A DNA stretch of 36,469 nt from positions 1 to 36,469 of the forward strand of contig VHDL01000018.1 of assembly GCA_016871415.1 (NCBI GenBank). Direction: 5' to 3'. Below, piece by piece: positions 5,501-26,210 of this stretch (position 1 is its first letter; every line of letters starts with the position of its first letter). A program made the position numbers and the translations under genes. This DNA is from Verrucomicrobiota bacterium. Lineage in GTDB: Bacteria; Verrucomicrobiota; Verrucomicrobiia; Opitutales; UBA953. The notes under the pieces were generated by a model. It ran no database searches and had not been told where the DNA came from. It was given only the letters and a program-made list of their open reading frames with translations.

Positions 5501-5502
5501 CC

Positions 5503-9832: not shown

Positions 9833-9867
9833 GAGGATATGAGCTTGGACCTAGGGCGCAAAAGGGC

Positions 9868-11256: not shown

Positions 11257-11355
11257 GGGGTTGGGGAAAGTCTGGGCAAAGGACGCCGCCTTGCCCATAT
11301 CTTAATCAGCGAAGCCGAGGTCGGATTTAGTCTAGGAAAAGCTGACCAACGGACC

Positions 11356-11438: not shown

Positions 11439-12341
11439 CTATCTCCCCTTCCTCCGCTGCTTCCTCCTATACTCCACCGGAGTGCAGCCCATCTCCCGCT
11501 TGAACAGGCGGTTGAAGAAGGTCACCTGGCGGAAGCCGCAGGCCAGCGCGATGTCCAGCACGCTCCGCTCACCATCCCGCAGTTCCCGGCGGGCGGCCTG
11601 GAGGCGGAGCTCGTTGACGAACGCGCTGAAGCTGTGGCCGGAGTGCTGCTTGAACTGCCGGGCGAAGGTCGGCCGACTCAGGCCGGAGATCTCCAGGAGA
11701 TCGTCCAGGCGGACCTCGTCGCGGAAGTTGGCGACGAGGTGCTGGACGGACTTCGAGATGGCTTTCTGGTAATGCGACTCGGCCCTGAGCGTGAAACTCC
11801 TCGACGACAGCAGGGCCAGTTCAGACTCAGGGGCGGCGGCGACTTCGGCGAGCAGACGCAACAGCGCCGCCAGCTGGCCTGCGCCCTTGCTCCGGGCGAC
11901 TTCCTGCATGAGCGCGGCGACGGCCGTCGCCGTCCGCCCGCGCAGATGCAGGCCGAGCTCGGCTCGCTTGAAGAGTTCACGCAGTTCTAGGTTCTCCGGA
12001 AAAGCCCAGACGGGGTGGCTCTCGGGGAAGTGCCATTGGATCGAGAGACCGCCGGAGGCGCCCGAGGTATGCCAGTGGTGCGGCAGGCGTTCGCCGAGCA
12101 GGACCAGGTCGCCCGCCGCGAACGCGCCGATGGCGTCGCCGACGAAACGCGTGCCCTCCCCCGCGGTGAAGAGCGTCAGCTCCATCTCCTTGTGGAAGTG
12201 CCAGTGATTACCCTCCCCTTGGACCGGCTGGGTCCGCCCTGGCCCGAGGATGCATTCGACTTCCCGGAGGGACTTCGACCAACGCAACACGCGGAAGGAG
12301 TGCCCTTCGGGCAGCTCGACCTTCTCACGGATGGCTTTCAT
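11439..12341 (-). CDS. AraC-family transcriptional regulator with N-terminal cupin domain
   Basis: This 300-residue protein is a predicted cytoplasmic sugar-responsive activator. Residues of about 10-110 form a cupin-like sensor: 'NHWHFHKEMELTLFTAGEGTRFVGD', 'FAAGDLVLLGERLPHHWHT'. Residues of about 195-295 form the two AraC HTH motifs: 'RLDDLLEISGLSRPTFARQFK' and 'SVLDIALACGFRQVTFFNRLFKREMGCTPVEYR'. It is transcribed away from the isomerase gene at 12461 across a 119-nt spacer, the usual arrangement for a regulator of the divergent operon. It shares its architecture with the second AraC protein at 23084-23941. The inducer is probably a sugar of the downstream pathway (inference). Confidence 0.88.
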   Translation of the reverse strand: MKAIREKVELPEGHSFRVLRWSKSLREVECILGPGRTQPVQGEGNHWHFHKEMELTLFTAGEGTRFVGDAIGAFAAGDLVLLGERLPHHWHTSGASGGLSIQWHFPESHPVWAFPENLELRELFKRAELGLHLRGRTATAVAALMQEVARSKGAGQLAALLRLLAEVAAAPESELALLSSRSFTLRAESHYQKAISKSVQHLVANFRDEVRLDDLLEISGLSRPTFARQFKQHSGHSFSAFVNELRLQAARRELRDGERSVLDIALACGFRQVTFFNRLFKREMGCTPVEYRRKQRRKGR

Positions 12342-12460: not shown

Positions 12461-13504
12461 ATGAGCACCCCCGTCACCTATCGATTCTCTTTCGGCCCTT
12501 GGAACATCAGCGAGGGCGGCGACCCCTTCGGCGGCGACGTCCGTAAGGCCTTCCCCCACGAGGAGAAGTTCGCCCTCTACCGCCCGCTTGGCTTCGAGGG
12601 CGTGCAGTTCCATGACGACGATGTCGTCCCGGGCATGGACGGCCTCAAGCCGGACCAGATCCAGAAGAGGGCCACCGAGGTGAAGGCGATGCTCTCCAAC
12701 CAAGGCCTGACCCCGGAATTCGTCGCCCCGCGCCTGTGGTTCGCCGACCAGACCGTCGACGGCGCCTACACTTCCAACAGCGCCTCCGACCGCGCCTACG
12801 CCTGGGACCGCACCAAGAAGTCCATCGACATCGCCAACGCCATCGGCTCCAAGGCCATCGTGCTCTGGCTCGCCCGCGAAGGCACCTACATCCGCGAGGC
12901 CAAGGACGCCAAGCTGGCCTACCAGCGCCTGCTCGAGACGGTCAACGCCATGCTCGACTACGACAGGAACATCGAGATCTGGATCGAGCCCAAGCCGAAC
13001 GAGCCGACCGACCAGGCCTACGTCCCCACCATCGGCCACGCCCTCACCCTCTCCTACGCCTCCAAGGACCACCGCCGCGTCAAGGGGCTGATCGAATCCG
13101 CCCACGCCATGCTCGCGGGCCTCGACGCCAGCGACGAGATGGCCTTCGCCCTCGCCCATGACAAGCTGGCGAGCGTCCACCTCAACGACCAGAACGGCCT
13201 GAAATACGACCAGGACAAGAACTTCGGCGGCGCCAACCTCCGCGCGGCCTTCAACCAGGTCCGCGTCCTCGAGGAATCCGGCTACGGCCGCCGCGGCGAG
13301 TTCATCGGCTTGGACGTCAAGGCCATCCGTACGCAGCGCGGCTGCCCGGTCACCGACCACCTCAGGAACAGCCGCGAGCTGTTCCTTGCGCTCGTCGAGA
13401 AGGCCCGCACGCTCGACCGCAAGCTCGTCCAGCAGTATCGCGACGCCCGCGACTACGAAGTCCTCGAGCTCCACGTCCTCAAGCACATCATGGGACTGAA
13501 GTAA
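12461..13504 (+). CDS. xylose-isomerase-fold sugar isomerase with an Asp-to-His metal-site change
   Basis: This 347-residue TIM-barrel enzyme probably interconverts an aldose and a ketose. It follows actinobacterial-type D-xylose isomerase motif by motif: W14, DPFG (21-24), catalytic HDDD (51-54), W136, EPKPNEP (176-182), E212 and H215, KYDQD (248-252), D285. In the classical enzyme an aspartate (IDLN) completes metal site 1; here it is H240 (VHLN). L-rhamnose isomerases use a histidine at the equivalent metal, so the substrate may be a 6-carbon or deoxy sugar and not D-xylose (inference). The protein is about 40 residues shorter than the Streptomyces enzyme, mainly at the C-terminus. The start is ATG 12461, with GAGG (12449-12452) 8 nt upstream. 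It is first gene of the operon that continues with the aldolase, 22 nt downstream. Confidence 0.82.
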   Translation: MSTPVTYRFSFGPWNISEGGDPFGGDVRKAFPHEEKFALYRPLGFEGVQFHDDDVVPGMDGLKPDQIQKRATEVKAMLSNQGLTPEFVAPRLWFADQTVDGAYTSNSASDRAYAWDRTKKSIDIANAIGSKAIVLWLAREGTYIREAKDAKLAYQRLLETVNAMLDYDRNIEIWIEPKPNEPTDQAYVPTIGHALTLSYASKDHRRVKGLIESAHAMLAGLDASDEMAFALAHDKLASVHLNDQNGLKYDQDKNFGGANLRAAFNQVRVLEESGYGRRGEFIGLDVKAIRTQRGCPVTDHLRNSRELFLALVEKARTLDRKLVQQYRDARDYEVLELHVLKHIMGLK

Positions 13505-13525
13505 GTCCCGCCCCGCCCTCCCCTC

Positions 13526-14353
13526 ATGAAGCAGTACCGCCTCAACCGCCTCTTCAACGCCTCGTCCAAGCGCTGCTTCGACGTCGCCGTCGACCACGGC
13601 TTCTTCAACCAGCCCGGCTTCCTGCAGGGCATCGAGGACATGCGCCAGGTCGTCGCGACGCTCGTCGACGCCGGCCCCGACGCCATCCAGCTGACGGTCG
13701 GCCAGGCCCGGCACCTGCAGTCCGTCCCGGGCAAGCAGAAGCCGGCCCTCGTCCTGCGTACGGACACCGCCAACGTCTACGGCAAGGAGCTCCCGTCCAC
13801 GGCCTTCAGCCTGATGATCGAGGAGACGATGCTTCAGGCCGTACGTCTCGACGCGGCCTGCGTCTGCGTGAACCTCTTCCAGATTCCCGGCGCGCCGGAC
13901 GTCACCGCCCGCTGCGTCGAGAACATCCTCAAGCTCAAGCCGCAGGCCGACCACTACGGCATGCCGATGATGGTCGAGCCGCTGGTCTTCCAGCCCAACG
14001 CGGTCGCGGGCGGCTACATGGTCGACGGCGACCTCACCAAGATCCTCCACCTGGTCCGCCAGGCGGTGGAGCTGGGCGCCGACGTGATCAAGGCCGACCC
14101 GACCGACGACGTCTCGCAGTATCACAAGGTCATCGAGACGGCCTCGGGGATCCCGGTGCTCGTGCGCGGCGGCGGTCGCGTGAGCGACAAGGAGATCCTG
14201 GTCCGCACCGAGGGTCTCCTCAAGCAGGGCGCCTCCGGCATCGTCTACGGCCGCAACGTCATCCAGCACCCCAATCCCCGCGGCATCACGCAGGCCCTCA
14301 TGGCCATGGTGCACCGCGGCGCTTCGGTCGACGAGGCGCTCAAGCTCATCTGA
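13526..14353 (+). CDS. class I aldolase of the DeoC/FbaB/LacD family
   Basis: This 275-residue TIM-barrel protein is predicted to cleave a ketose phosphate into two carbon fragments through a Schiff base. K189 in 'GADVIKADPTDD' (184-195) is the likely Schiff-base lysine. GGGR (215-218) and YGRN (241-244) match the phosphate-binding loops. 'CFDVAVDHGFF' (17-27) corresponds to the family's 'aMDHG' motif. Length and motifs fit archaeal-type class I fructose-bisphosphate aldolase, LacD and related sugar-phosphate aldolases; the exact substrate is not visible. With the isomerase before it and the PfkB kinase at 18292, a ketose-1-phosphate cleaved to dihydroxyacetone phosphate and a short aldehyde is the natural proposal. 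It lies 21 nt after the isomerase and 7 nt before glcD; no strong Shine-Dalgarno is visible. Confidence 0.82.
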   Translation: MKQYRLNRLFNASSKRCFDVAVDHGFFNQPGFLQGIEDMRQVVATLVDAGPDAIQLTVGQARHLQSVPGKQKPALVLRTDTANVYGKELPSTAFSLMIEETMLQAVRLDAACVCVNLFQIPGAPDVTARCVENILKLKPQADHYGMPMMVEPLVFQPNAVAGGYMVDGDLTKILHLVRQAVELGADVIKADPTDDVSQYHKVIETASGIPVLVRGGGRVSDKEILVRTEGLLKQGASGIVYGRNVIQHPNPRGITQALMAMVHRGASVDEALKLI

Positions 14354-14360
14354 GCGACCC

Positions 14361-15746
14361 GTGGGCGCCGCCGACCCGACATTCGTCGACGCCCTGAGGG
14401 CGACGGTGGGCGCGCCCCACGTGCTCACGTCACCCGAGGACACCCTCCCCTACGGCTTCGACGGCACCGCCGCCCTCAAGGGACCGGTCGGCGCGGTCGT
14501 GCTGCCGGGGTCGACGGAGGAAGTCGCCGCGGTCATGCGTCTCGCCCACGGGCGAGGCGTCCCCGTGGTGACGCGAGGCTCGGGCACGGGCCTCAGCGGG
14601 GGCAGCGTGCCCTCGCCGGGCAGCCTCGTGCTCTGCCTCGTCCGCATGGACCAGGTGCTGGCCGTGGACGCCCCCAATCTCACGGTCCGCGTCCAGGCGG
14701 GCGCCATCACGGCCGCCGTCGATGCCGCGGCCAATGAGCACGGTCTCTTCTACCCGCCCGACCCAGGCTCGATGAAGATCAGCACCATCGGCGGCAACGT
14801 CGCCGAGAACTCCGGCGGCCTGCGCGGGCTGAAATACGGCGTGACCCGCGACTACGTCATGGGCCTCGAGGTCGTGCTGCCCGACGGACGGGTCGCGCGC
14901 TTCGGCAACGCCTGCGTGAAGGACGTGGCGGGCTACTCGATGAAGGACCTCTTCATCGGCTCGGAAGGCACGCTCGGCATCATCACCGAGGTCCTGCTGC
15001 GGCTGCTTCCCCGGCCGGCCGCGCGCAGGACGATGCTCGCCACCTACGCCACGATGGAGGAGGCCGCCCAGACGGTCTCCGACATCATCGCGGCGCGCAT
15101 CATCCCCTGCACGCTGGAGTTCCTCGACCGCACGACCGTCGGCTGCGTGGAGGACTACGCGAAGATCGGCCTACCCCGCGACTGCGAGGCGCTCCTGCTC
15201 ATGGAAACCGACGGGCATCCGGCCGCGGTCGCCGAGGAGGCCGGCCGCATGGCCGAGATCGCCCGCGCCCGCGGGGCCCGGGAAGTGCGCACGGCCGCCG
15301 ACGAAGCGGAGGCGGCCCGTCTCGCCACGGCGCGCCGTTCGGCCTTTTCCGCCCTCGCCCGGGTGCGGCCGACCACGATCCTCGAGGACGTCACGGTGCC
15401 GCGCGACCGGCTGGCGGAGATGGTCGGATACATCGCCGAGGTCGCGAAGAAGCGCCGGCTCAGGGTCGGCACGTTCGGCCACATGGGCGACGGCAACCTG
15501 CACCCGACCTTCCTCACCGACGAACGGGACGCCGACGAGATGGCCCGGGTCCACGAGGCGCTCGAGGACATCGTGACGAAGACGCTCGCGGTCGGCGGTA
15601 CGATCACGGGCGAGCATGGCGTGGGCCTGGCCAAGAAGGCCTGGCTGCGACGTCAGGTCGGCGAGGGCAGCCACGACCTGATGCGCGAGCTGAAGCGCGC
15701 GTGGGACCCCCGCGGGCTGCTCAATCCCGGCAAGATCTTCGACTGA
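14361..15746 (+). CDS. glcD: FAD-linked oxidase, glycolate/D-lactate oxidase subunit GlcD-like
   Basis: This 461-residue flavoprotein is predicted to oxidise a 2-hydroxy acid such as glycolate or lactate and to pass electrons to the GlcF-like protein encoded next. The PCMH FAD-binding domain is at about 35-215 (RGSGTGLSGG, 'GGNVAENSGGLRGLKYGVTRDYV'). The FAD-oxidase C-terminal domain holds GHMGDGNLHP and GEHGVGLAKKAWL, the substrate and flavin site motifs. The start is GTG 14361, 7 nt after the aldolase stop; the next in-frame ATG would remove the first beta strand. No GlcE gene is present, so the complex would be GlcDF only. It probably consumes glycolate or lactate formed from the aldehyde product of the aldolase. 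Confidence 0.9.
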   Translation: MGAADPTFVDALRATVGAPHVLTSPEDTLPYGFDGTAALKGPVGAVVLPGSTEEVAAVMRLAHGRGVPVVTRGSGTGLSGGSVPSPGSLVLCLVRMDQVLAVDAPNLTVRVQAGAITAAVDAAANEHGLFYPPDPGSMKISTIGGNVAENSGGLRGLKYGVTRDYVMGLEVVLPDGRVARFGNACVKDVAGYSMKDLFIGSEGTLGIITEVLLRLLPRPAARRTMLATYATMEEAAQTVSDIIAARIIPCTLEFLDRTTVGCVEDYAKIGLPRDCEALLLMETDGHPAAVAEEAGRMAEIARARGAREVRTAADEAEAARLATARRSAFSALARVRPTTILEDVTVPRDRLAEMVGYIAEVAKKRRLRVGTFGHMGDGNLHPTFLTDERDADEMARVHEALEDIVTKTLAVGGTITGEHGVGLAKKAWLRRQVGEGSHDLMRELKRAWDPRGLLNPGKIFD

Positions 15747-15749
15747 GCA

Positions 15750-17060
15750 ATGAAGGCGTCGCTGAAGTCGCTCGACTACTCGGTGCTCCAGCAGTGCATG
15801 CACTGCGGCATGTGCCTGCCGGCCTGCCCGACGTACGACGCGACGAAGAAGGAGCGGCATAGCCCCCGCGGGCGTATTTCGCTCATGCGGGCGGTGGCCG
15901 ACGACGAACTGAAGCTGACGCCGGCCTTCGCCGACGAGATGAGCTACTGCCTCGGCTGCCTCGCCTGCCAGACGGCCTGCCCGGCGGGCGTGGACTACTC
16001 GAACCTCCTGGAGACGGCCCGCGCCGAGGTCGCCGCATCCGGACTCAACCGGACCGTCTCGAGCCGCTTCTGGCGCGCCGTCACGATCCGCGGGCTCTTC
16101 ATGAACCCGCGGCTGCTGCGCGTCGCGGGACGGCTGCTGCGGCTCTACCAACGGCTCGGCCTGCAGACGGCCTTCCGTCGCATCGGGCTGACCAGGCTGC
16201 TGCCCGCCGACCTGCGTCGGCTGGAGCCGCAATGCCCGACGGTCTCGCCGAAGTTCTCGCACGAGCTCATCCGGCCGGTCGAACTCCCGGCCAAGAAGCA
16301 GCACCGCGTGGCGCTGCTCACGGGCTGCGTGCAGGACCTGACGTTCTCCGACGTCAACCGCGACACGGCTGACGTGCTGCTGGCCAACGGGTGCGAGGTC
16401 GTCACGCCTCCCGTCCAGCCGTGCTGCGGCTCGCTGCACGCCCACAACGGCGAACCCGGGCCGGCCCGGACCCTGGCCCGCCGCATGATCGACCTCTTTC
16501 CGCCGTCGCAGTTCGACACGATCATCACCAACGCCGGCGGCTGCGGCAACCATCTGCGCCATTACGGACAGCTCCTGGCCGACGACCCCGCTTACGCCGC
16601 CCGCGCCAAGGAGTGGGACGCCAAGGTGAAGGACGTGCACGAATGGCTGCTGGAGAAAGGCTGCGTCGCGCCCCGCGCCGGCCTGGGTGACCTGACCGTA
16701 ACTTACCACGACTCCTGCCACCTGACCCACGGTCAGAAAGTCACCCGGCAGCCCCGCGACCTCCTGAGGCTCATCCCCGGACTCAGGCTCGTCGAGCTCC
16801 CTGAAGCCAACTGGTGCTGCGGCAGCGCGGGCATCTACAACATCACCCAGCCTGAGCAGTCCGAACAGCTCCTCGTCCGCAAGGTCGGGCATGTCATCTC
16901 CACCGGCGCGACCGTCCTAGCCACCGCCAACCCCGGGTGCCACCTGCAGATCGAGCGCGGACTCCGCCAGGCCGGCTCCCCCGTCACCCTCCTCCAGCCC
17001 GTGACATTGCTGGCCCGGGCGTATCGGAAGGAGAGGAGTGCTGAATCGATGACTGCATAG
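15750..17060 (+). CDS. glcF: iron-sulfur heterodisulfide/GlcF-like subunit
   Basis: This 436-residue protein has two N-terminal [4Fe-4S] ferredoxin motifs (CMHCGMCLPACP at 16-27 and CLGCLACQTACP at 67-78) and two CCG domains ('PVQPCCGSLHAH' and 'EANWCCGSAGIY'), the layout of GlcF-type subunits. It takes electrons from GlcD and delivers them to the respiratory chain, acting at the cytoplasmic membrane face. It starts 4 nt after glcD ends. The last codons read RSAESMTA and overlap a 15-nt direct repeat (17036-17074), so the C-terminus may have been extended or altered by a small duplication. The next gene follows after 105 nt. Confidence 0.9.
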   Translation: MKASLKSLDYSVLQQCMHCGMCLPACPTYDATKKERHSPRGRISLMRAVADDELKLTPAFADEMSYCLGCLACQTACPAGVDYSNLLETARAEVAASGLNRTVSSRFWRAVTIRGLFMNPRLLRVAGRLLRLYQRLGLQTAFRRIGLTRLLPADLRRLEPQCPTVSPKFSHELIRPVELPAKKQHRVALLTGCVQDLTFSDVNRDTADVLLANGCEVVTPPVQPCCGSLHAHNGEPGPARTLARRMIDLFPPSQFDTIITNAGGCGNHLRHYGQLLADDPAYAARAKEWDAKVKDVHEWLLEKGCVAPRAGLGDLTVTYHDSCHLTHGQKVTRQPRDLLRLIPGLRLVELPEANWCCGSAGIYNITQPEQSEQLLVRKVGHVISTGATVLATANPGCHLQIERGLRQAGSPVTLLQPVTLLARAYRKERSAESMTA

Positions 17061-17074
17061 AGTGCTGAATCGAT
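17036..17074. repeat. 15-bp direct repeat overlapping the glcF stop codon
   Basis: GAGTGCTGAATCGAT occurs at 17036-17050 and again at 17060-17074, a period of 24 nt. The first copy is inside the last codons of the glcF-like gene and the second just after its TAG. A tandem duplication here would change the gene's natural end. Confidence 0.7.
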
Positions 17075-17091
17075 CACAGATAAACACTCTC

Positions 17092-17165
17092 CCTCTGTCA
17101 TCCGCCATCTGTCATCCGTCCTCTGTCATCTGCCATCTGTCATCCGTCATCTGTCATCTTCCATC
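17092..17165 (+). repeat. heptanucleotide tandem repeat CATC[TC]GT before the oxidoreductase start
   Basis: Ten consecutive 7-nt units fill 17092-17161: CCTCTGT, CATCCGC, CATCTGT, CATCCGT, CCTCTGT, CATCTGC, CATCTGT, CATCCGT, CATCTGT, CATCTTC, then CATC and the ATG at 17166. The consensus is CATCTGT. No Shine-Dalgarno is present and the track is almost purine-free, so the messenger would be an unstructured pyrimidine-rich leader. The same unit recurs at 25216-25264. The period of 7 would keep repeat units in changing reading frames, and the track is not coding. Confidence 0.9.
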
Positions 17166-18287
17166 ATGAAATCAGTCAACATCGGCATCATCGGCGGCGG
17201 CCTCATGGGCCGCGAAATGGCCAGCGCGTTCGCCCGCTGGTGCGCGCTCACCGACGTCACGGTGAAGCCTGTGCTCACGGCCGTGGCGGACCTCAATCCC
17301 GCCACGCTCGCGTGGTTCGACTGCATCCCCTCCTGCACTCAGAAGACCACCGACACCAAGGCCCTGCTGGCCAACCCCGAGGTCGACGTGGTCTACGTGG
17401 CCGTCCCGCACAACCTGCATGAGAAGCTCTATTGCGACGTCCTCGCCGCCGGGAAGGACCTCTTCGCCGAGAAGCCCTTCGGCATCGACCTCGCCTCCGC
17501 CCGACGCATCCAGGCGGCGGTGAAGTCCAGCGGCCGCTTCGTGCGCTGCAGCTCGGAGATGCCCTTCTTCCCCGGCGCCCAACGCGCGTACGAGCTCGCC
17601 AAGTCCGGGGCCGTCGGCCGGGTGCTCGAGGTCGTCTCAGGCTTCCACCACAGCAGCGACCTCGACCCCACCAAGGCCGCCAACTGGAAGCGCCTCAACG
17701 CCACCTGCGGCGAAGGCGGCGTGCTCAACGACCTCGGCATGCACGCCTGCCACATCCCACTCCGCCTCGGCTGGAAACCCTCCCGCGTCTTCGCCCAGCT
17801 CCAGAAGGGCTACCCGCAGCGCCCTGACGGCAAGGGCGGCGTGACGGCCTGCGACACCTGGGACAACGCCCTGCTCAGCACCTGGATCAAGGTGGGCGGA
17901 CACGACGTGCCCATGCGCCTCGAGATGAAGCGCCTCATGCCCGGCGCGACCAACACCTGGTACGTCGAGATCCTGGGCACCGAGGGCGGCGTCCGCTACA
18001 GCACCTCCGACACCAAGGCGCTCTGGCTCTTCGAGCGGGGCAAGGAGCAGTTCTGGAAGCGGACCGACCTCGGATTCGGCACGCCGTTCAAGGCGGTCAC
18101 GGGCGGCATCTTCGAACCGGGCTTCGCCGACGTCATCCAGCAGATGTGGGCCGCCTACCTGATGGAACGCGCCGGGGAGCTCAACGGGCGCTTCGGCTGC
18201 GCGACGCCCGAGGAGGCCGTCGCCACGCACGAGATCTTCGACGCCGCCCTGCGCTCGCAGGCCAAGGGGGAGGCCGTCGCGCTCTGA
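17166..18287 (+). CDS. Gfo/Idh/MocA-family oxidoreductase
   Basis: This 373-residue NAD(P)-dependent oxidoreductase is predicted to act on a sugar or sugar-like alcohol. The N-terminal Rossmann fold has GIIGGGLMG (7-15). The catalytic-domain hallmark EKPF follows (AEKPFG, about 100-105). A 'HACHIP' segment stands where the family's conserved histidine lies. The larger C-terminal alpha/beta domain is of usual length. It begins directly after the 7-nt repeat track and is followed after 4 nt by the PfkB kinase, so these two are probably one translational unit. The specific substrate (for example an inositol, a glucoside or a deoxy sugar) cannot be told from sequence. Confidence 0.88.
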   Translation: MKSVNIGIIGGGLMGREMASAFARWCALTDVTVKPVLTAVADLNPATLAWFDCIPSCTQKTTDTKALLANPEVDVVYVAVPHNLHEKLYCDVLAAGKDLFAEKPFGIDLASARRIQAAVKSSGRFVRCSSEMPFFPGAQRAYELAKSGAVGRVLEVVSGFHHSSDLDPTKAANWKRLNATCGEGGVLNDLGMHACHIPLRLGWKPSRVFAQLQKGYPQRPDGKGGVTACDTWDNALLSTWIKVGGHDVPMRLEMKRLMPGATNTWYVEILGTEGGVRYSTSDTKALWLFERGKEQFWKRTDLGFGTPFKAVTGGIFEPGFADVIQQMWAAYLMERAGELNGRFGCATPEEAVATHEIFDAALRSQAKGEAVAL

Positions 18288-18291
18288 CGCC

Positions 18292-19302
18292 ATGGGCCGT
18301 ACGGAACGCAGGGGCCTGCTCGCCGCGGGGAACTTCATCGTCGACTACGTCAAGGTCATCGACGCCTACCCGGCGCAGGACACGCTCGCGAGCATCCTGG
18401 GCGAGTCGCGTTCCAACGGGGGCGGGCCTTACAACGTCCTTAAGGACCTCGCAGCCATGAAGGCCGGCTTCCCGCTCGAGGCCTGCGGGCTCGTCGGCGA
18501 TGACGCCAACGGCCAGTGGATCAAGCGCGACTGCGAGGAGCACGGCATCGACGTCGCCCAGCTGCATCTGAGCAAAGAACACCCGACGTCCTTTACCGAC
18601 GCGATGACCGTGCAGTCCACCGGACGGCGCACGTTCTTCCATTGCCGCGGCGCCAACGCCCACTTCGACCTCAAGCACTGCGGGTTCGGCAAGACCGACG
18701 CGCGTATCCTGCACCTCGGCTACCTCATGCTCCTCGACCGCATGGACAGCTTCGAAGGCGGCCAGACGGTCGCGGCCAAGCTGCTCTTCAACGCCCGCTC
18801 GGCGGGCCTGGAGACGTCGGTCGACATGGTCAGCGCCACGCACCCCCGCTTCCGCGAGATCGCCCTCAGCGCGCTGCCGCTCACCGACCACCTCGTGCTC
18901 AACGAGATCGAGGCCGGGAACACCCTGGGGACGCCGGTCGCCGCCGGTGACGCCGAGGGATTGATCCGCGCCGCCGAACAGCTGCTCGCCGCCGGGGTGA
19001 AGCGCACGGTGACCATCCACACCGAGCACGGAGCTGTCTGCGCGACGGCCGAAGGGCTGCGACTCAGGCAGGCCTCGCTCAAGCTTCCCTCCGGTTACAG
19101 CAAGGGCGCCACCGGCGCGGGCGACGCCTTCGCCGCCGGCATGCTGTACGGCCTGCACGAAGGCCTGGAGATGCAGGCGCGCCTCAAACTGGCCGTCTGC
19201 GCCGCCGCCGCCTGCCTCTCCGACCCCACGCCGTCCAAAGGCCTGCGTCCCGTGGCCGAGTGCCTCGCCCTGGCGGATCAGTTCGGCTTCGGGGAATTCT
19301 GA
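18292..19302 (+). CDS. PfkB-family carbohydrate kinase
   Basis: This 336-residue cytoplasmic kinase is predicted to phosphorylate a ketose or related sugar with ATP. The N-terminal signature is NGGGPYNVLKDLAAMKAG, the central one is 'LVLNEIEAGNTLG' and the ATP/catalytic motif is GATGAGDAFAAG (the GAGD aspartate is the base). Length is normal. It follows the Gfo/Idh gene by 4 nt. The only phosphorylating enzyme in the block, it would supply the phosphoketose for the class I aldolase at 13526. Substrate class is inferred from context: PfkB members act on ribose, fructose, 2-keto-3-deoxygluconate, 5-keto-deoxygluconate, rhamnulose-like and tagatose-phosphate sugars, and motif reading does not separate them. 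Confidence 0.86.
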   Translation: MGRTERRGLLAAGNFIVDYVKVIDAYPAQDTLASILGESRSNGGGPYNVLKDLAAMKAGFPLEACGLVGDDANGQWIKRDCEEHGIDVAQLHLSKEHPTSFTDAMTVQSTGRRTFFHCRGANAHFDLKHCGFGKTDARILHLGYLMLLDRMDSFEGGQTVAAKLLFNARSAGLETSVDMVSATHPRFREIALSALPLTDHLVLNEIEAGNTLGTPVAAGDAEGLIRAAEQLLAAGVKRTVTIHTEHGAVCATAEGLRLRQASLKLPSGYSKGATGAGDAFAAGMLYGLHEGLEMQARLKLAVCAAAACLSDPTPSKGLRPVAECLALADQFGFGEF

Positions 19303-19336: not shown

Positions 19337-19381
19337 GTGCAAAAGTGCAAACCGGCCTGCGGCCTGTGCAAAGGTGCAAAC
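19337..19381. repeat. two pairs of GTGCAAA octamers, 29 nt apart
   Basis: GTGCAAAA/GTGCAAAC (19337-19352) and GTGCAAAG/GTGCAAAC (19366-19381) are two tandem octamer pairs separated by a 13-nt spacer that contains the small hairpin GGCC-TGC-GGCC. The pairs are 29 nt start to start, close to three helical turns. This arrangement resembles paired binding sites for a dimeric regulator such as AraC (inference). Confidence 0.65.
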
Positions 19382-19404
19382 GTGGATGCAGGTTTCAGGC
19401 GGCG

Positions 19405-19459
19405 GGTAGGGTTGAGCACCCTCGCTTAGCCGCAGCTGACCGAGGCGGTCAGCCCTACC
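19405..19459. repeat. third GGTAGGG/CCCTACC-bracketed hairpin element
   Basis: GGTAGGG (19405-19411) and CCCTACC (19453-19459) bracket a perfect 8-bp stem GCTGACCG/CGGTCAGC (19435-19453) with a 3-nt loop AGG. The borders and the 3-nt loop match the two elements at 8343-8394 and 8425-8453, 11 kb away, although the stem sequence is different. Confidence 0.65.
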
Positions 19460-19495
19460 TCTGATCCTTCGGACCTCTGGTTGTCTTCAGCATGC

Positions 19496-19732: not shown

Positions 19733-20767
19733 ATGAGCACCAAGAAATACAACGTCGGCGTGATCGGCTACGGCTGGGCCGCCGCCGCCCACATCGACGC
19801 GATCAACGCCACCGGCCTCGCGCAGGTGACCGCCGTCTACTCCTCACGCCCCCTCGACTCCGCCGCCCTCAGCGCGAAGCACGGAGGGAACATCAAGGCC
19901 TACCGCTCCGTCGACGCCCTGCTGGCGGATCCCGACGTCCAGGTCGTCGACATCACCAGCTACCCGAGCCAGCACTGCGAGCAGGCCGTCGCCGCCGCCA
20001 AGGCCGGGAAGCACATCATCCTCGAGAAGCCCATGGCGAACTCGATGGAGGAGGTGCAGCGCATCGTCGACGCCGCGGAGAAGAACGGCGTCAAGGGCTG
20101 CGTATGCTTCGAGCTGCGCTTCTCCGGCCAGATGGAGTCCACCAAGGCCCTCATCGACCAGGGACTGCTCGGGGACATCCATTACGGCGAAGTCGACTAC
20201 TACCACGGCATCGGCCCCTGGTACGGACAGTACCGCTGGAACATTGGCAAGAAGGACGGCGGCAGCGCCCTGCTCACCGCCGGATGCCACGCCCTCGACG
20301 GCCTGCTGATGTGCATGCCGGGCGAAGTGGACTCGGTCATGAGCCTGAGCACGAAGTCGAAGAGCGCCTACTTCACCCCCTACGAATACGACACCTCCGC
20401 GGTCACCATCGTGAAGTTCAAGAACGGGGCGGTCGGCAAGTGCGCCGCCATCGTGGACTGCCTCCAGCCCTACTACTTCCGGACGCACCTGATGGGCAGC
20501 CACGGCAGCCTGCTCGACAACAGGCTGCACTCCGACAGGCTGAAGTCGGACAAGTCGAAGTGGAGCACGCTCTCCATGAAGATGTGCGACTCCGGCGACG
20601 TCAGCGACCATCCCTACCAGTCGCAGTTCGAGGCCTTCTTCAAGGCGCTGGCCGAAGGGCGCGAGATGCCGCTGACCTCCTTCCGCGAGGCCCTGCGCAC
20701 GTTCAAGGTCATCTTCGCCGCCGACCGCAGCGCGGCCGAAGGCGGACGCCCGGTCAAGGTCGACTGA
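19733..20767 (+). CDS. Gfo/Idh/MocA-family oxidoreductase (second copy)
   Basis: This 344-residue NAD(P)-dependent oxidoreductase carries GVIGYGWAAAAH (9-20) as the dinucleotide loop, where the usual G-x-G-x-x-G reads GYGWAA, and EKPMAN in the middle as the EKP motif. 'TAGCHALDGLLM' holds the conserved histidine region. It is only distantly similar to the protein at 17166 and is not a recent duplicate. It starts the second half of the sugar block and is followed after 5 nt by the LmbE-like deacetylase. The pairing suggests sequential action on an N-acetylated or otherwise substituted sugar (inference). Confidence 0.88.
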   Translation: MSTKKYNVGVIGYGWAAAAHIDAINATGLAQVTAVYSSRPLDSAALSAKHGGNIKAYRSVDALLADPDVQVVDITSYPSQHCEQAVAAAKAGKHIILEKPMANSMEEVQRIVDAAEKNGVKGCVCFELRFSGQMESTKALIDQGLLGDIHYGEVDYYHGIGPWYGQYRWNIGKKDGGSALLTAGCHALDGLLMCMPGEVDSVMSLSTKSKSAYFTPYEYDTSAVTIVKFKNGAVGKCAAIVDCLQPYYFRTHLMGSHGSLLDNRLHSDRLKSDKSKWSTLSMKMCDSGDVSDHPYQSQFEAFFKALAEGREMPLTSFREALRTFKVIFAADRSAAEGGRPVKVD

Positions 20768-20772
20768 AGGCC

Positions 20773-21573
20773 ATGCCCTCCTGCCTGGCCGTCTTCGCGC
20801 ATCCTGACGACGTCGAGTATTTCGCCGCCGGGACGATGCTCCAGCTCGCCCGCCGCGGCTGGGACCTGCACTACTTCGACCTCTGCGCGGGCGACTGCGG
20901 CTCGGTCCGGACGGACGGGCCTGCCACCGCCGCGCTGCGCCTCCGGGAGGCGCGCGAGGCCGCGCGCGTCCTGGGCGCGACGTTCCACGCGCCGATCGCG
21001 GGCGACATGACGCTGACCTTCGAAATCCCGCTCATGCGCAAGGTGGCCGCGGTGGTCCGTCGCTCCCGCGCCGACATCGTGCTCACGCACGCCCTCTCCG
21101 ACTACATGGAGGACCACATGGCCTGCGCCCGGCTGGCCACGTCCGCCGCCTTCACGCACGGCATGCCCAATTTCGAGAGCGATCCGCCCGAGGCCACCTA
21201 CGCGCATGACGTGACGGTCTACCACGCGCTGCCGCACGGCCTGCGCACGCCGCTCCGTCAGAAGGTCAGCGCCGGACTCTACGTCGACGTCTCCCCGGTG
21301 CACGCGCAGGTGCGACAGGCGCTCGCCGCCCACGCCTCGCAGAAGGAGTGGCTGGACGTCAGTCAGGGCGCCGACTCCTACCTGGCCACGCTGGACCGCA
21401 TGAGCGAGGCGGTCGGGGCGCTCTCTGGCCGGTTCAAGATGGCCCAGGGCTGGAACCGCCACCTGCACCTCGGCTACAGCGCCAAGGAGATCGACCCGCT
21501 GCGCTCGGCGCTCGGCTCCGATTGCGCGGTGAACGAAGCCCACGAGGCCGCCCTCGAAAAGCCCCTGCCCTGA
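20773..21573 (+). CDS. LmbE/PIG-L-family N-deacetylase
   Basis: This 266-residue zinc-dependent hydrolase is predicted to remove N-acetyl groups from GlcNAc-like sugars. The start ATG 20773 is chosen because the family motif AHPDD begins at residue 9. H10, D13 and H115 (in SDYMEDH, 109-115) are the expected zinc ligands; D12 is the likely catalytic base. Family members act on GlcNAc-PI, mycothiol precursors, bacillithiol precursors and chitobiose, and no subfamily is evident here. It lies between the second Gfo/Idh gene and a Tat-exported protein (2 nt gap), with a NagB-like gene in the same strand 3.7 kb downstream. That combination suggests amino-sugar catabolism. Confidence 0.85.
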   Translation: MPSCLAVFAHPDDVEYFAAGTMLQLARRGWDLHYFDLCAGDCGSVRTDGPATAALRLREAREAARVLGATFHAPIAGDMTLTFEIPLMRKVAAVVRRSRADIVLTHALSDYMEDHMACARLATSAAFTHGMPNFESDPPEATYAHDVTVYHALPHGLRTPLRQKVSAGLYVDVSPVHAQVRQALAAHASQKEWLDVSQGADSYLATLDRMSEAVGALSGRFKMAQGWNRHLHLGYSAKEIDPLRSALGSDCAVNEAHEAALEKPLP

Positions 21574-21575
21574 CC

Positions 21576-23081: not shown

Positions 23082-23083
23082 GC

Positions 23084-23941
23084 ATGAAGCCCATCGTCGA
23101 GCAGCAGGCCCCGCACGCCGCCAATGAACTGGTGGCCTGCGAACTGGTGCGCGGCAGGGACTTCGGATGCGTCTGGCATCACCACCCCGAGTATGAGATC
23201 ACCCTAGTGCGCAAGGGCGGCACGGAACGCTGGGTCGGCGACCGGCTCACGCCCCTCCGCCCGGGCGACCTCGTGCTGCTGGGCTCCGGTCTCCCGCACG
23301 ACTTCCGCAATGAGCGCGCACGCGGTCCGGTCGACGCGGTGGTCCTGCAGTTCCGTCCGAACTTCCTCGGCGAGGACTGGCTGAAGCACGCCTCGGTCAG
23401 CGCCATCGCCCGCCTGCTGGACCGCTCACGGCGCGGACTGGAGGTGCGGGGCGCCACGCGTCGCGCGGCGGCCAAGATGGTCGAGCAGGCCCCGAAGCTC
23501 CGCGGCGTCGGACGTCTGGTGCTGCTGCTCCGGCTGCTCGAGCTGCTGGCCGAATCGGACGATCTCAGGGAGATCGCCTCGCCGGGCTTCAGGGCCGACA
23601 CCGACGCGCATTCCTCCGACCGCATCGGCGCGGTGGCGCGACACATCGAGGAGACGCTCTCGAGCCAGATCTACGTCTCGACGCTCGCCCGCATGACGGG
23701 CCTGAGCGAAAGCGCCTTCAGCCGGCTCTTCCACAAGTGCACGGGGCGTACGGTCCCGCAGTACGTCAACGAGCTCCGCATCGCGCGGGCCTGCCGGCTG
23801 CTGGCCGAGACGGACCAGACGGTGAAGGAGGTGGCCCATGCCTGCGGCTACCCGACGCCGGCCTACTTCCACCGTCAGTTCCATCGGCAGCACGGGGTCT
23901 CACCCCTCGCGTACCGCGATGCCATCCGCCGCCACGCCTGA
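23084..23941 (+). CDS. AraC-family transcriptional regulator (second)
   Basis: This 285-residue protein has a cupin-like N-terminal sensor ('WHHHPEYEITLVRKGGTERWVGD', 'LRPGDLVLLGSGLPHDF') and a C-terminal pair of HTH motifs ('STLARMTGLSESAFSRLFHKC', 'VKEVAHACGYPTPAYFHRQFHRQHGVSPLAYR'). It has the same design as the AraC protein at 11439, especially in the cupin strand with PGDLVLLG, but is clearly a different sequence. It is inside the gene series on the same strand, not divergent, and starts 2 nt after the preceding stop; it may regulate the block it sits in or the transporter downstream. Confidence 0.88.
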   Translation: MKPIVEQQAPHAANELVACELVRGRDFGCVWHHHPEYEITLVRKGGTERWVGDRLTPLRPGDLVLLGSGLPHDFRNERARGPVDAVVLQFRPNFLGEDWLKHASVSAIARLLDRSRRGLEVRGATRRAAAKMVEQAPKLRGVGRLVLLLRLLELLAESDDLREIASPGFRADTDAHSSDRIGAVARHIEETLSSQIYVSTLARMTGLSESAFSRLFHKCTGRTVPQYVNELRIARACRLLAETDQTVKEVAHACGYPTPAYFHRQFHRQHGVSPLAYRDAIRRHA

Positions 23942-23993
23942 TCCCGTCCGACAAAGAACTTTCCCTTCCCTACCCCACCCCTTTAACCACCCC

Positions 23994-25193
23994 ATGACCC
24001 CCACCCTATACCTCCGTCTGGCCACGATGGTCTTCCTCCACTACTTCGTGTGGAGCTGCTGGTACAACACGATGGCCGTCTACCTCGGGAAGCTGGAATT
24101 CACCGGCACCCAGATCGGCCTCGCCTATGGCACGACCGCCATCGGCGCGCTCGTCTCGCCCTTCCTCATCGGCGTCATCGCCGACCGCTACGTCTCCGCC
24201 CAACGTCTCCTCGGGGTCCTGCACCTCCTGGGCGCCGCGTTGCTCTGGTGGATCTCGCAGCAGACCACCTTCGGCGTCTTCTACCCGTCGTTGATCGTCT
24301 ACACGCTCACCTACATGGCCGGCCATGGCCTCATCAACACCATCACCCTCACCCACGCGCCGAACCCAGCCAAATGGTTCCCGATCGTGATGGCCGCCGC
24401 CTCCGCCGGCTGGATCGCCGCGGCCAACGTGGTCAACTTCGCCAAGCTCGCGGACAACAACGGGATGTTCACCCTCGCCTGCGGGGTCGCCATGGCCATC
24501 GCCCTCTACTCGTTCACGCTCCCGAACACCCCGCCCAAGGGCGACGCCGGACCCGTCTCGGCCGGCAAGCTGCTCGGCCTCGACGCCCTCAAGCTCTTCA
24601 AGGACCGATCCTTTGCGGTCTTCATGGTCTGCTCGTTCCTGATCTGCGTCCCGCTGAGCTTCTACTTTACCTGGACGGGCGCCTTCCTGAGCGAAATGAA
24701 CGTCGCCGACTACGCCTCCAAGATGACCCTCGGCCAAGTCTCCGAAGTCGGGTTCCTGCTCCTGCTTCCGATCCTGCTGCCGGTCCTCGGCACCAAACGC
24801 ATCATGCTCCTCGGCATGGCCGCCTGGGCCGCCCGCTTCGCGCTCTTCGCCTACTTCCACGAGCAGCCCACGGCGACCTGGATGGTCCTCGGCGGCATCC
24901 TTCTGCACGGCATGTGCTATGACTTCATCTTCGTGATGGGCCGCATGTATGTCGACAAGGCGGCCGGCGACGGCCTCCGCGCCTCCGCGCAGGGCCTGCA
25001 CGCCGTCTTCACCCTCGGCGCCGGCATGTTCGTCGGCTCCTGGCTGTCCGGCGTCGTGGCGCAGCACTACACGACGAATGTCGTCCATGACTGGAAATCC
25101 ATCTGGCTCGTGCCGGCGATCATGAGCGCCTTGCTCATCCCCGTCTTCCTCGCCCTCTTCCGCGAGAAGCCCGCCGAAGACACTCACGCCTGA
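23994..25193 (+). CDS. MFS transporter, nucleoside:H+ symporter-like
   Basis: This 399-residue inner-membrane protein has about 12 predicted transmembrane helices and no signal peptide. Its pattern ('FLHYFVWSCWYNTMAVYLGKLEFTG', 'GTTAIGALVSPFLIGVIADRY', 'GMCYDFIFVMGRMYVD') fits the NupG/XapB-type nucleoside:H+ symporter branch of the MFS. In Verrucomicrobia such proteins often sit in sugar loci, and this one probably imports the sugar or oligosaccharide product of the block. The start ATG 23994 fits the first helix; an extended in-frame start 156 nt upstream would add a hydrophilic Arg/Pro-rich leader that overlaps the AraC gene. Spacer to the NagB-like gene: 78 nt with heptad repeats. Confidence 0.85.
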   Translation: MTPTLYLRLATMVFLHYFVWSCWYNTMAVYLGKLEFTGTQIGLAYGTTAIGALVSPFLIGVIADRYVSAQRLLGVLHLLGAALLWWISQQTTFGVFYPSLIVYTLTYMAGHGLINTITLTHAPNPAKWFPIVMAAASAGWIAAANVVNFAKLADNNGMFTLACGVAMAIALYSFTLPNTPPKGDAGPVSAGKLLGLDALKLFKDRSFAVFMVCSFLICVPLSFYFTWTGAFLSEMNVADYASKMTLGQVSEVGFLLLLPILLPVLGTKRIMLLGMAAWAARFALFAYFHEQPTATWMVLGGILLHGMCYDFIFVMGRMYVDKAAGDGLRASAQGLHAVFTLGAGMFVGSWLSGVVAQHYTTNVVHDWKSIWLVPAIMSALLIPVFLALFREKPAEDTHA

Positions 25194-25215
25194 CCTAGCC
25201 CTAGCCCTATAACAG

Positions 25216-25264
25216 CATCTTCCATCTGTCATCCGTCATCTGTCCTCTGTCCTCTGCCATCTCC
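25216..25264 (+). repeat. heptanucleotide tandem repeat CATC[TC]GT, second locus
   Basis: Seven units occur: CATCTTC, CATCTGT, CATCCGT, CATCTGT, CCTCTGT, CCTCTGC, CATCTCC, ending 7 nt before the ATG at 25272. The unit and its variants are those of 17092-17165. The shared variants (CCTCTGT, CATCCGT) show that the two tracks are related and not independent simple repeats. Confidence 0.88.
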
Positions 25265-25271
25265 ACGCCCC

Positions 25272-26210
25272 ATGCCCCGCAAACTCAGCCACATCGCCCC
25301 CGACTGGTGGGACTACACCACGCTCGACTCCGACCTGATCAATGACGCCGCGCGTCTGACCGAGAAGGACCTCCGTCAGCTCTCCCGCCCCGGCTTCAAG
25401 GTCGTCATGTACGACACCCTCGAGGATTTCTACCTCGCCGAGGCCCTCGAATACATCGCCGCCTGGCGACAGGCCACCGCGGACAATCCCGTCGGCATCT
25501 GCGGTCCGATCGGCCCGACCGAACAGCTCCCGCTCGTCGCCCGCCTGGTCAACGAGCTCGGCCTCAGTCTCAAGCACGCCCACTTCTGGGGCATGGACGA
25601 ATGGTATGACGAGAAGACGAAGAAGGAGGTGCCGGTCACGCACCCGCTCTCCTTCGAGCGCGCCGACCGCGAGCTCTGCTTCGACCGCATCCAGAAGAAG
25701 CTGGCGATCCCCGAGGCCAACCTGCACTTCCCCAAGGCCAAGGTGGCCGACTACGTGAAGACGTGGGACGCCGGCGTCCGCTGCGCGGTGATGCAGGGCG
25801 GCCAGGGCGACATCAAGCACTGGGCCTTCAACGATCCGCTCAAGCGCACGGGCAAGTACAAGGACGCCCCGCCCTCCCCGGCCGAATACCGCAAGCTCGG
25901 GACCCGCATCGTGGAGCTGCACCCCGTCACCCTCAGCCAGAACGCCCGCACCTCCGGCGGCGGCAACATCACCATGGTCCCCAAGATGGCCATCACCGTC
26001 GGCCCCCTGGAAACGTGGCTGGCCGACAAGGTCTCGATCTGGCACGCCGGCGCCCACGACAACCCGCTGGGCCAGCGCCTGACCGCCCTGATGATCTCCA
26101 AGCGCCTCGCGGACACCGCCGTCCCGATGTCCCTCCTGGCCGACCACCCGAACGTGCAGTTCAATTATTTCCGCGGAGGTCTGGGTTCGTGCGCGGTCGA
26201 GATGCATTGA
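25272..26210 (+). CDS. glucosamine-6-phosphate deaminase (NagB)-like protein with altered catalytic motif
   Basis: This 312-residue protein resembles NagB/6-phosphogluconolactonase-type Rossmann-like enzymes, which convert glucosamine-6-phosphate to fructose-6-phosphate and ammonia. MDEWYD (108-113) corresponds to the LDEY segment holding the ring-opening acid. The second motif reads [14 protein letters not shown] (176-189), where NagB has GGxGxDGHIAFNEP: H183 is kept, the Asp two residues before it is replaced by Ile, and Glu becomes Asp188. The protein is longer than E. coli NagB (266) by an N-terminal extension. Substrate and activity may therefore differ. It follows a repeat-filled spacer and precedes the FAD protein by 4 nt. 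Confidence 0.8.

Follow-up and report, generated by a model that had tools for sequence, protein, structure and literature searches.

A putative sugar-splitting route through a ketose 1-phosphate in Verrucomicrobiota, built around an LmuK-type kinase

Which sugar is degraded, and by what chemistry, when a member of the Verrucomicrobiota carries an isomerase, an aldolase, a pair of oxidase subunits, an oxidoreductase and a kinase in one operon? The question is raised by the 36,469-nucleotide stretch of contig VHDL01000018.1 (assembly GCA_016871415.1) that is called the window here, in which six genes, named ISO, ALD, GLCD, GLCF, GFO1 and PFKB, follow one another on the forward strand. An earlier account drawn from the letters of the DNA (the sequence-only reading) had taken them for a complete-looking isomerase–kinase–aldolase system, the best candidate in the window for an undescribed one, with enzymes of other families than the usual rhamnose and fucose sets and without a microcompartment. 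All six are indeed open frames with family matches, at the place and on the strand claimed; the families do differ from the rhamnose and fucose sets, and the bacterial microcompartment (BMC) shell domain PF00936 has no match in the whole genome, where 11 candidates were scored. The operon is read here as a sugar-splitting pathway that passes through a ketose 1-phosphate and has a second entry for amino sugars, a reading to which we give a probability of roughly 0.6. Freshwater Verrucomicrobiota are widespread users of polysaccharides, and their catabolic routes have mostly been inferred from the fucose and rhamnose models.

The LmuK-type kinase and the recurrence of the operon

First of all, PFKB shares 41% identity (199 bits) with the kinase at the LmuK position in E. 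coli, against 43 bits for the best of the three other PfkB loci of its own genome (a BLAST comparison, without a tree), and from this similarity PFKB is likely to be an ortholog of LmuK. Its best NCBIfam match is ribose-1-phosphate kinase, at 60 bits where the cut-off is 330. The operon that holds the E. coli relatives of PFKB agrees with lmuKAIZYX in its position and in the order of its genes. According to the available part of the lmu study, LmuI isomerises D-lyxose and D-mannose, LmuK acts as a kinase on fructose and LmuA is called an aldolase by similarity; its authors propose conversion of an aldose into a ketose, phosphorylation and aldol cleavage, and full growth of E. coli on lyxose needs lmuI and the transporter (PMC10128022).

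Two further loci bear on the position of the phosphate. A prokaryotic ketohexokinase (PF25270; 187 and 163 bits) takes the place of the kinase in L049 and L180, near a protein of the family called c13, which is described below, and the order in L049 is c13, ketohexokinase, a GlcD/GlcF-like fusion (recognised partly by eye), ISO and a Gfo-type gene. As far as the available text goes, the prokaryotic ketohexokinase of Haloarcula produces fructose 1-phosphate (PMC11519228), and it is mainly because of this product, and of the ketohexokinase in the kinase slot, that the phosphate is tentatively placed at C1.

Synteny was checked across the Verrucomicrobiota, and the cluster recurs across the phylum. 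ISO was scanned against 84,980 species genomes; of the 145 relatives obtained, the best 80 were kept, which make 81 loci together with the window; contig ends inside many clusters lower all counts among them. The gene clusters present at these loci are ALD (49), AraC (42, counted as presence by gene cluster and not by position at each locus), GLCD and GFO1 (30 each), GLCF (25) and PFKB (18). The complete series ISO-ALD-GLCD-GLCF-GFO1-PFKB is found again in records with the titles Opitutae, Akkermansiaceae and Verrucomicrobiales, and records of the Verrucomicrobiaceae type show ISO-ALD-GFO1-PFKB. A Chthoniobacteraceae record (L038) has, within the stretch examined, all cluster genes but PFKB; ISO and GFO1 occur with no match to ALD in L033, L036, L040, L043 and L046, and elsewhere ISO stands alone. 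The nearest relatives by ISO are metagenome-assembled genomes (MAGs) titled mostly Opitutae or Verrucomicrobiota. The records of three loci (L007, L036 and L045) are titled Polynucleobacter, Akkermansia muciniphila or the like, yet their ISO is 82–95% identical to that of the window, which suggests mislabelled or mixed MAGs.

Co-occurrence was scored in 288 genomes of the phylum with completeness of at least 80, at E values up to 1e-60 for ISO, 1e-30 for PFKB and 1e-50 for P0009 (the NAGB protein treated below); all p-values ignore relatedness, and the three gene draws are assumed to cover the same 288 genomes. ISO is present in 50 of them, PFKB in 74 and ALD in 15; ISO and PFKB are found together in 27 (Fisher p 2e-6), ALD and PFKB in 12 (p 9e-6), and ALD and ISO in 9 (p 2e-4). 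Moreover, 9 of the 15 ALD genomes fall among the 11 in which ISO is at least 72% identical (p 8e-12).

Interchangeable enzymes around the kinase

Plasmid records were searched with ALD, GFO1 and PFKB. Clusters of Thioclava and Rhizobium contain ALD (62–63%), GFO1 (51–53%) and the kinase (34–38%), with a D-lyxose/D-mannose-type isomerase replacing ISO; relatives L095, L096 and L099 also carry an LmuI-type isomerase, where the window has the XylA-like ISO instead. The PDB matches of the Thioclava solute-binding protein are generic sugar binders. Persicobacter combines the kinase (46%) with a lyxose-type isomerase and a class II aldolase, as does Subdoligranulum, while in Aureimonas, Shinella and Pararhizobium the kinase lies beside a 'hypothetical' protein homologous to the c13 proteins found near ISO in L049, L054, L067 and L076. 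All three of c13, lyxose-type isomerase and kinase occur together in L112, L113 and L126, which are relatives in the window's order.

Among 52 kinase loci, a set that is not random (seven are the window and its close relatives, E. coli is counted twice, and 22 besides the window were fetched from the 74 kinase genomes of the phylum), 27 have a DhnA aldolase (ALD) and 14 a class II or c13-type aldolase. GFO1 is found no more than 9 kb away from the kinase at 26 of the 27 ALD loci (only L050, which is cut by a contig end, lacks it) and at none of the 14 with other aldolases; GlcD-GlcF appears at kinase loci only together with ISO plus ALD (14 loci). The kinase thus stays the same from locus to locus while its partners change: in the isomerase slot stands a XylA-like, a D-lyxose-isomerase-like or a NagB-like protein, and in the aldolase slot a DhnA-type, a class II or a c13 protein. 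Bacteria of several phyla seem to assemble a ketose-1-phosphate pathway from interchangeable enzymes.

A separate assemblage was observed in a Subdoligranulum plasmid record (L104:3460-10131), where a GFO1 relative (45%), a class II aldolase, an FGGY-type kinase (by eye), an AraA-type isomerase (PF11762, PF24856) and a class III aminotransferase lie together; it is another isomerase–kinase–aldolase set built from different parts.

ISO falls below the curated cut-off for xylose isomerase XylA (Table 1). Its AlphaFold2 (AF2) model, built from 28 sequences, has a mean predicted local distance difference test score (pLDDT) of 80.5, and the 50 Foldseek matches listed for it are all xylose/glucose isomerase entries, some of them so named in the results of the sequence alignment and not in their own titles. 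By pairwise alignment counted by eye, ISO keeps nine residues of Streptomyces XylA (H54, D57, E181, K183, E217, H220, D255, D257 and D287, corresponding to H51, D54, E176, K178, E212, H215, D250, D252 and D285), which together with D245 we take to be catalytic or metal-binding, and it changes D245 to H240, T90 to A89 and F94 to W93; kept and changed residues alike are invariant across the 28 aligned sequences. ISO therefore reads as an aldose–ketose isomerase with an altered pocket, and no substrate is predicted from these residues. In 256 plasmid records searched with ISO none reached at least 60% identity, and the annotated matches are named xylose isomerase. A myo-inositol-type route with ISO as IolE and PFKB as IolC was rejected, the scores being 21.5 for ISO with IolO and 53.9 for PFKB with IolC against cut-offs of 300.

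In the aldolase slot the window has the DhnA class I type, and an LmuA-type class II aldolase is missing from its cluster. In the PDB search ALD is closest to MJ0400 and LsrF, and its family matches include DhnA/LsrF/ADH-synthase relatives. D23, E151, K189 and R243 and the GG/GRN motifs are invariant in 23 aligned sequences, and K189 aligns with the lysine of LsrF and MJ0400, presumably the Schiff-base residue. Paralogues of ALD (65–70%) were seen in L144, L145 and L147, in regions that contain, variously and for the most part by eye, DeoR-type regulators, a NagB-like protein, an AMP-binding ligase or aminotransferases, which suggests a separate pathway for amino compounds.

The c13 proteins are about 345 residues long (for example L049:2678-3718, L180:8672-9724 and L103:7961-8989). 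They adjoin an LmuK-type kinase or a ketohexokinase in L049, L101, L103, L106, L110, L112, L113, L114, L126 and L180, and lie near ISO, with no kinase seen, in L054, L067 and L076. Across 12 members D25, E193, K233 and GG and GR motifs are invariant, and the conserved Asp, Glu and Lys suggest a class I aldolase. The member in L054 matched no Pfam family; the likeness to LsrF is weak (NCBIfam E 6e-4; LsrF ranked first in a PDB profile search, E 0.005), as is the profile comparison with ALD (18.7% probability), and an AF2 model on a 4-row alignment (pLDDT 49.7) was not used further. Mainly from its gene context, c13 is a probable new aldolase family, so far unnamed.

With regard to the oxidase, GLCD and GLCF are both under the curated cut-offs for glycolate oxidase (Table 1), no GlcE gene was found among the genes of the cluster, to which that search was confined, and malate synthase occurs in none of the 79 family genomes, the window's included, 36 of which are at least 90% complete. 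Therefore glycolate is an unlikely substrate, and a more probable one is lactate or some other 2-hydroxy acid. He et al. 2017 doubted, in the available part of their paper, that verrucomicrobial glcD genes encode glycolate oxidase (PMC5615132).

An aldehyde-oxidising role of the Gfo/Idh/MocA protein is unlikely as well; members of this family are known to oxidise ring hydroxyls or to act as glycosidases dependent on nicotinamide adenine dinucleotide (NAD). GFO1 is nearest in the PDB to the scyllo-inositol/L-glucose dehydrogenase 5ya8 (91 bits), with 33 bits to 8qc2, an NAD-dependent sulfoquinovosidase of family GH188. GFO2, a second protein of the kind encoded after PFKB, is nearest to DgpA (95 bits), a glycoside 3-hydroxyl oxidase according to the available text (PMC8873060); its relatives adjoin PFKB in L109 (62%) and NAGB in L178 (64%). 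Our guess is that GFO1 and GFO2 perform the first step on a glycoside, and the strict pairing of GFO1 with ALD at kinase loci leaves room for an oxidised ALD substrate.

The end at 19302 assigned to the system was too early, for it reaches a PIG-L deacetylase and the NagB-like protein NAGB (P0009). P0009 has no Pfam match; in the PDB it weakly matches glucosamine 6-phosphate deaminase (E 0.08) over a span that includes MDE and GG.G...H.AFN.P-like motifs. The two genes recur with the kinase in other lineages. L109 has ALD-GFO1-PFKB-GFO2 (62%)-PIG-L (46%)-NAGB (79%), with neither ISO nor a lyxose-type isomerase found there; L117 has NAGB-PIG-L-class II aldolase-PFKB, L143 has NAGB-PIG-L-PFKB, and L161 has class II aldolase-NAGB-PIG-L-kinase, the kinase match holding one stop codon. 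Altogether NAGB, PIG-L and kinase form sets in L161–L164, L117, L143 and L109 (the last with GFO2), joined by an aldolase in L161, L117 and L109, and L180 shows PIG-L-NAGB-Gfo-c13-ketohexokinase. PIG-L is close to NAGB in 12 of 19 fetched NAGB loci (four of them chosen for a nearby PFKB), and NAGB lies 0.8–6 kb from PFKB in 8 genomes. Relatives of P0009 occur in 89 of the 288 phylum genomes, an overlap of 44 out of 74 genomes for PFKB and 42 out of 50 for ISO (the latter p 8e-18); in the family search, with fragments counted, ISO is present in 14 of 19 genomes with NAGB versus 10 of 60 without. We take NAGB for the probable third occupant of the isomerase slot, and PIG-L with NAGB for a probable path by which amino sugars reach the ketose of the main route.

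Proposed route and the identity of the sugar

In the proposed route, a free aldose would be converted by ISO into a ketose, which PFKB would phosphorylate, most likely at C1; ALD would then cleave the ketose 1-phosphate by Schiff-base chemistry into dihydroxyacetone phosphate (DHAP) and a short aldehyde. The aldehyde would be oxidised by an enzyme encoded outside the cluster, and GLCD-GLCF would oxidise the resulting 2-hydroxy acid. By the second entry, PIG-L would deacetylate an N-acetylated 2-amino sugar, which NAGB would convert into the same ketose and ammonia, while GFO1 and GFO2 may prepare the sugars by ring oxidation or NAD-dependent glycoside cleavage. The isomerase–kinase–aldolase logic of the sequence-only reading is supported; as for completeness, the six-gene operon is tight, but no aldehyde dehydrogenase was seen in the cluster and the associated genes at 19733-26210 lay outside the stretch it had delimited.

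As to the sugar, a XylA (564 bits against a cut-off of 533) and, next to it, a xylulokinase-like gene (202 against 380) lie elsewhere in the genome, which also has a NagB at 236.7 bits, just under the cut-off of 236.9, a NagA (207 of 226 bits) accompanied by another NagB-like gene (132 bits), and a 6-phosphogluconolactonase-like gene; the NagB-type genes were scored at the three PF01182 loci of the genome from lists of open reading frames and NCBIfam. That xylose and N-acetylglucosamine (GlcNAc) have routes elsewhere weighs against both as substrates of the operon. Deamination before phosphorylation, followed by phosphorylation at C1, would suit a sugar without a usable C6 hydroxyl, and our best guess is therefore a substrate closed to phosphorylation at C6, one instance being a 6-deoxyhexose (like D-quinovose or D-fucose) along with the corresponding N-acetylamino sugar; cleavage would give DHAP and lactaldehyde, and the latter would yield lactate for GlcDF. 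Only tentatively do we extend this to a route of several phyla (Verrucomicrobiota, Pseudomonadota and others) for 6-deoxyhexoses and their N-acetylamino forms, of the quinovose/N-acetylquinovosamine or D-fucose/N-acetylfucosamine type, in which three unrelated isomerases (one NagB-like, acting on the unphosphorylated amino sugar), LmuK or ketohexokinase at C1, and three aldolases including c13 would lead to DHAP and lactaldehyde.

Several observations weigh against the ketose-1-phosphate pathway with two entries. Many ISO loci lack ALD or PFKB, in part because of contig ends; 11 of the 52 kinase loci have none of the three aldolases, and the annotated genes of a Klebsiella locus of the PFKB family are a transporter and the kinase only. 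In the available part of the lmu study, lmuK and lmuA are dispensable for growth of E. coli on lyxose, and mannose supported growth via lmu only when the regulator was overexpressed in a manA mutant (PMC10128022). With regard to the amino-sugar branch, ISO is absent from 47 and PFKB from 45 of the 89 genomes with NAGB at the cut-offs used, NAGB in the window is 6 kb from PFKB with an AraC gene, a transporter and others in between, and NAGB, being only weakly NagB-like, may not deaminate. Finally, a mannitol(-1-phosphate) dehydrogenase-family gene (PF08125) lies downstream of the LmuK-type kinase in L119:8870-10018, L143:7650-8774 and L162:4576-5694, and such MtlD-family genes suit ordinary fructose no less than they do a 6-deoxy ketose, and favour a hexulose of the usual constitution.

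The main rival, possible though doubtful in our estimate, makes D-fructose the hub: glucose (by ISO), mannose (by the lyxose-type isomerase), glucosamine (by NAGB) and mannitol (by the MtlD-like enzyme) would all give fructose, then fructose 1-phosphate, and then DHAP and glyceraldehyde, as in animal fructolysis. It agrees with the fructose kinase activity of LmuK and the formation of fructose from mannose by LmuI (available part of PMC10128022), with the fructose 1-phosphate made by the Haloarcula ketohexokinase (likewise in part, PMC11519228), and with the PF25270 kinases and MtlD-family genes of some relatives; however, the genome already has NagA and NagB-type genes with which GlcNAc could take its usual route, and according to the same part of the lmu study the Km of LmuI for mannose is 19.8 mM and lmu deletions left wild-type growth on mannose unaffected (PMC10128022). 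A pentose version, in which D-xylose or D-lyxose would pass through D-xylulose and xylulose 1-phosphate to DHAP and glycolaldehyde, with glycolate oxidised by GlcDF, would be the natural form of a synthetic pathway; that xylulose-1-phosphate pathway is already published (its source being available in part), ISO is closest to XylA, and LmuI is active on D-lyxose (PMC10128022, in part). We consider it unlikely, for the genome has the XylA and the xylulokinase-like gene named above, malate synthase is missing from all 79 family genomes, and the metal ligand D245 is replaced by H, and F94 by W, in 28 of 28 aligned ISO relatives.

The pairing of GFO1 with the DhnA aldolase (26 of 27 kinase loci, against none of the 14 whose aldolase is class II or c13) speaks for an oxidative variant, in which GFO1 would first oxidise a ring or chain hydroxyl and ALD would cleave a diketose phosphate in the manner of LsrF, giving DHAP and a hydroxy acid directly and no aldehyde step. 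The apparent lack of an aldehyde dehydrogenase in the cluster fits it, as do LsrF and MJ0400, relatives of ALD that act on diketose phosphates; we nevertheless judge it improbable, because ALD or its paralogues stand without a nearby GFO1 in L125 and L144–L147, the five loci listed above have GFO1 and ISO with no ALD match, and the 45% relative of GFO1 in L104 goes with a class II aldolase. Least probable is a route like the sulfo-Embden–Meyerhof–Parnas (sulfo-EMP) pathway, from sulfoquinovose to sulfofructose 1-phosphate and on to DHAP and sulfolactaldehyde, with GFO1 as an NAD-dependent sulfoquinovosidase. In the available parts of the respective papers, sulfo-EMP shares the logic with a PfkB kinase (PMC9594981), class I aldolases of PF01791 occur in such routes (PMC12421959), and structures of GH188 sulfoquinovosidases are listed as Gfo/Idh/MocA proteins (PMC10755693). 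Against it stand the 33 bits of GFO1 with 8qc2 versus 91 with L-glucose/scyllo-inositol dehydrogenase, PDB matches of PFKB and ALD at 1e-3 without an entry named sulfofructose kinase or sulfofructose phosphate aldolase, a cluster in which neither a sulfolactaldehyde reductase nor a dehydrogenase was seen, and the amino-sugar branch, which does not suit it.

If the two-entry route through a ketose 1-phosphate is correct, its interchangeable isomerases and aldolases would explain the recurrence of the operon across the phylum, and the poorly understood LmuK family would likely gain a physiological role. It would also offer a source of natural ketose-1-phosphate aldolases, predict a function for c13, a protein family without Pfam coverage, and mean that a single kinase serves both the neutral and the amino sugars that share a carbon skeleton.

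Gene layout and comparison with known systems

The host genome comprises 2.21 Mb in 60 contigs with completeness of 99.5%, and is probably of freshwater or lake origin. The features of the window are collected in Table 1.

Table 1. Operon, amino-sugar branch and associated genes in the window, with the matches on which the assignments are based
Feature	Position	Strand	Matches and remarks
AraC-family regulator	11439..12341	-	Divergent from operon; PF12833, RhaS-like helix–turn–helix; relatives in 42/81 ISO loci
ISO, XylA-like aldose–ketose isomerase (predicted)	12461..13504	+	TIGR02631/PF01261; 186.3 bits, curated cut-off 447
ALD, DhnA/LsrF-type class I aldolase (predicted)	13526..14353	+	PF01791; MJ0400, LsrF best in PDB
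GLCD, GlcD-like flavin adenine dinucleotide (FAD) 2-hydroxyacid dehydrogenase subunit	14361..15746	+	PF02913 and PF01565; TIGR00387 501 bits, cut-off 568
GLCF, GlcF-like iron-sulfur subunit	15750..17060	+	PF02754, Fer4; NF008434 242 bits, cut-off 333
GFO1, Gfo/Idh/MocA oxidoreductase	17166..18287	+	PF01408; best PDB 5ya8, 91 bits
PFKB, LmuK-type ketose kinase (predicted)	18292..19302	+	PF00294; 41% identity, 199 bits to E. coli LmuK-position kinase
GFO2, second Gfo/Idh/MocA protein, putative amino-sugar branch	19733..20767	+	Best PDB DgpA, 95 bits
PIG-L/LmbE deacetylase, putative amino-sugar branch	20773..21573	+	PF02585, 81 bits
Major facilitator superfamily (MFS) transporter (Nuc_H_symport), candidate importer	23850..25193	+	PF03825, 343 bits
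NAGB (P0009), NagB-like deaminating isomerase candidate	25272..26210	+	TIGR00502 22.5 bits, cut-off 236.9

From ISO to PFKB the intergenic gaps are 21, 7, 3, 105 and 4 bp. A scan for promoters and terminators gave no promoter-like and three terminator-like sites, and shuffled sequences gave more. The MFS transporter is tied to the pathway by position alone and is absent from the other loci tested. Between PFKB and GFO2 (19340-19460) lies a repeat-like sequence (GGTAGGG...CCCTACC), parts of which were also seen in L013, L014, L015 and L177. Upstream, at 3491-6990, a PSCyt2/PSD1 (DUF1549/1553) and DUF1501 pair was noted; such neighbours were rejected as pathway members, for although they recur in several loci, 20 DUF1501 matches above cut-off occur genome-wide and the nearness may be chance. 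Two similar adjacent proteins are encoded on the reverse strand at 8456-11298 (DUF4139 in the one tested), with relatives in 12 loci, often adjoining the AraC gene.

Among known systems, the L-fucose/L-rhamnose microcompartment route employs an isomerase, a kinase and an aldolase that lead to DHAP and lactaldehyde. As described in the available part of PMC5615132, this route of planctomycetes and Verrucomicrobiota is a sugar catabolic set of the same phylum; unlike it, the window genome has no BMC domain and its enzymes come from other families. Sulfo-EMP and sulfo-EMP2 resemble the window, as far as the available part of PMC9594981 goes, in using an isomerase, a C1 kinase and an aldolase for a hexose blocked at C6, with non-orthologous swaps, whereas GFO1, PFKB and ALD showed no close kinship to their enzymes and no sulfonate genes were seen in the window cluster. 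The Haloarcula route, according to the accessible text of PMC11519228, shares a ketose 1-phosphate made by ketohexokinase and an archaeal class I aldolase, but there fructose 1-phosphate is phosphorylated again by 1-phosphofructokinase before cleavage, and polyol dehydrogenases rather than an isomerase supply the fructose.

The canonical GlcNAc route through NagA and NagB has deacetylation followed by deaminating isomerisation in common with the proposed branch, while the window has PIG-L, a very divergent NagB-like protein and a kinase proposed to act after deamination. LmuI, the isomerase of the lmu system, is of the cupin type. The lmuKAIZYX operon of E. coli (OI167; PMC10128022) has a kin PfkB kinase (41%) and the same isomerase–kinase–aldolase logic; in the available part of its description it differs from the window by the class II aldolase LmuA, an ATP-binding cassette transporter and two-component regulation. 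At the E. coli locus itself no GlcDF, Gfo, PIG-L or NagB-like genes lie alongside. No account of the present gene set was found in the open-licence PMC papers covered. The claim of an undescribed system is thereby narrowed to the variant: the isomerase–kinase–aldolase logic is already known from the published lmuKAI set, and this combination of enzymes is new.

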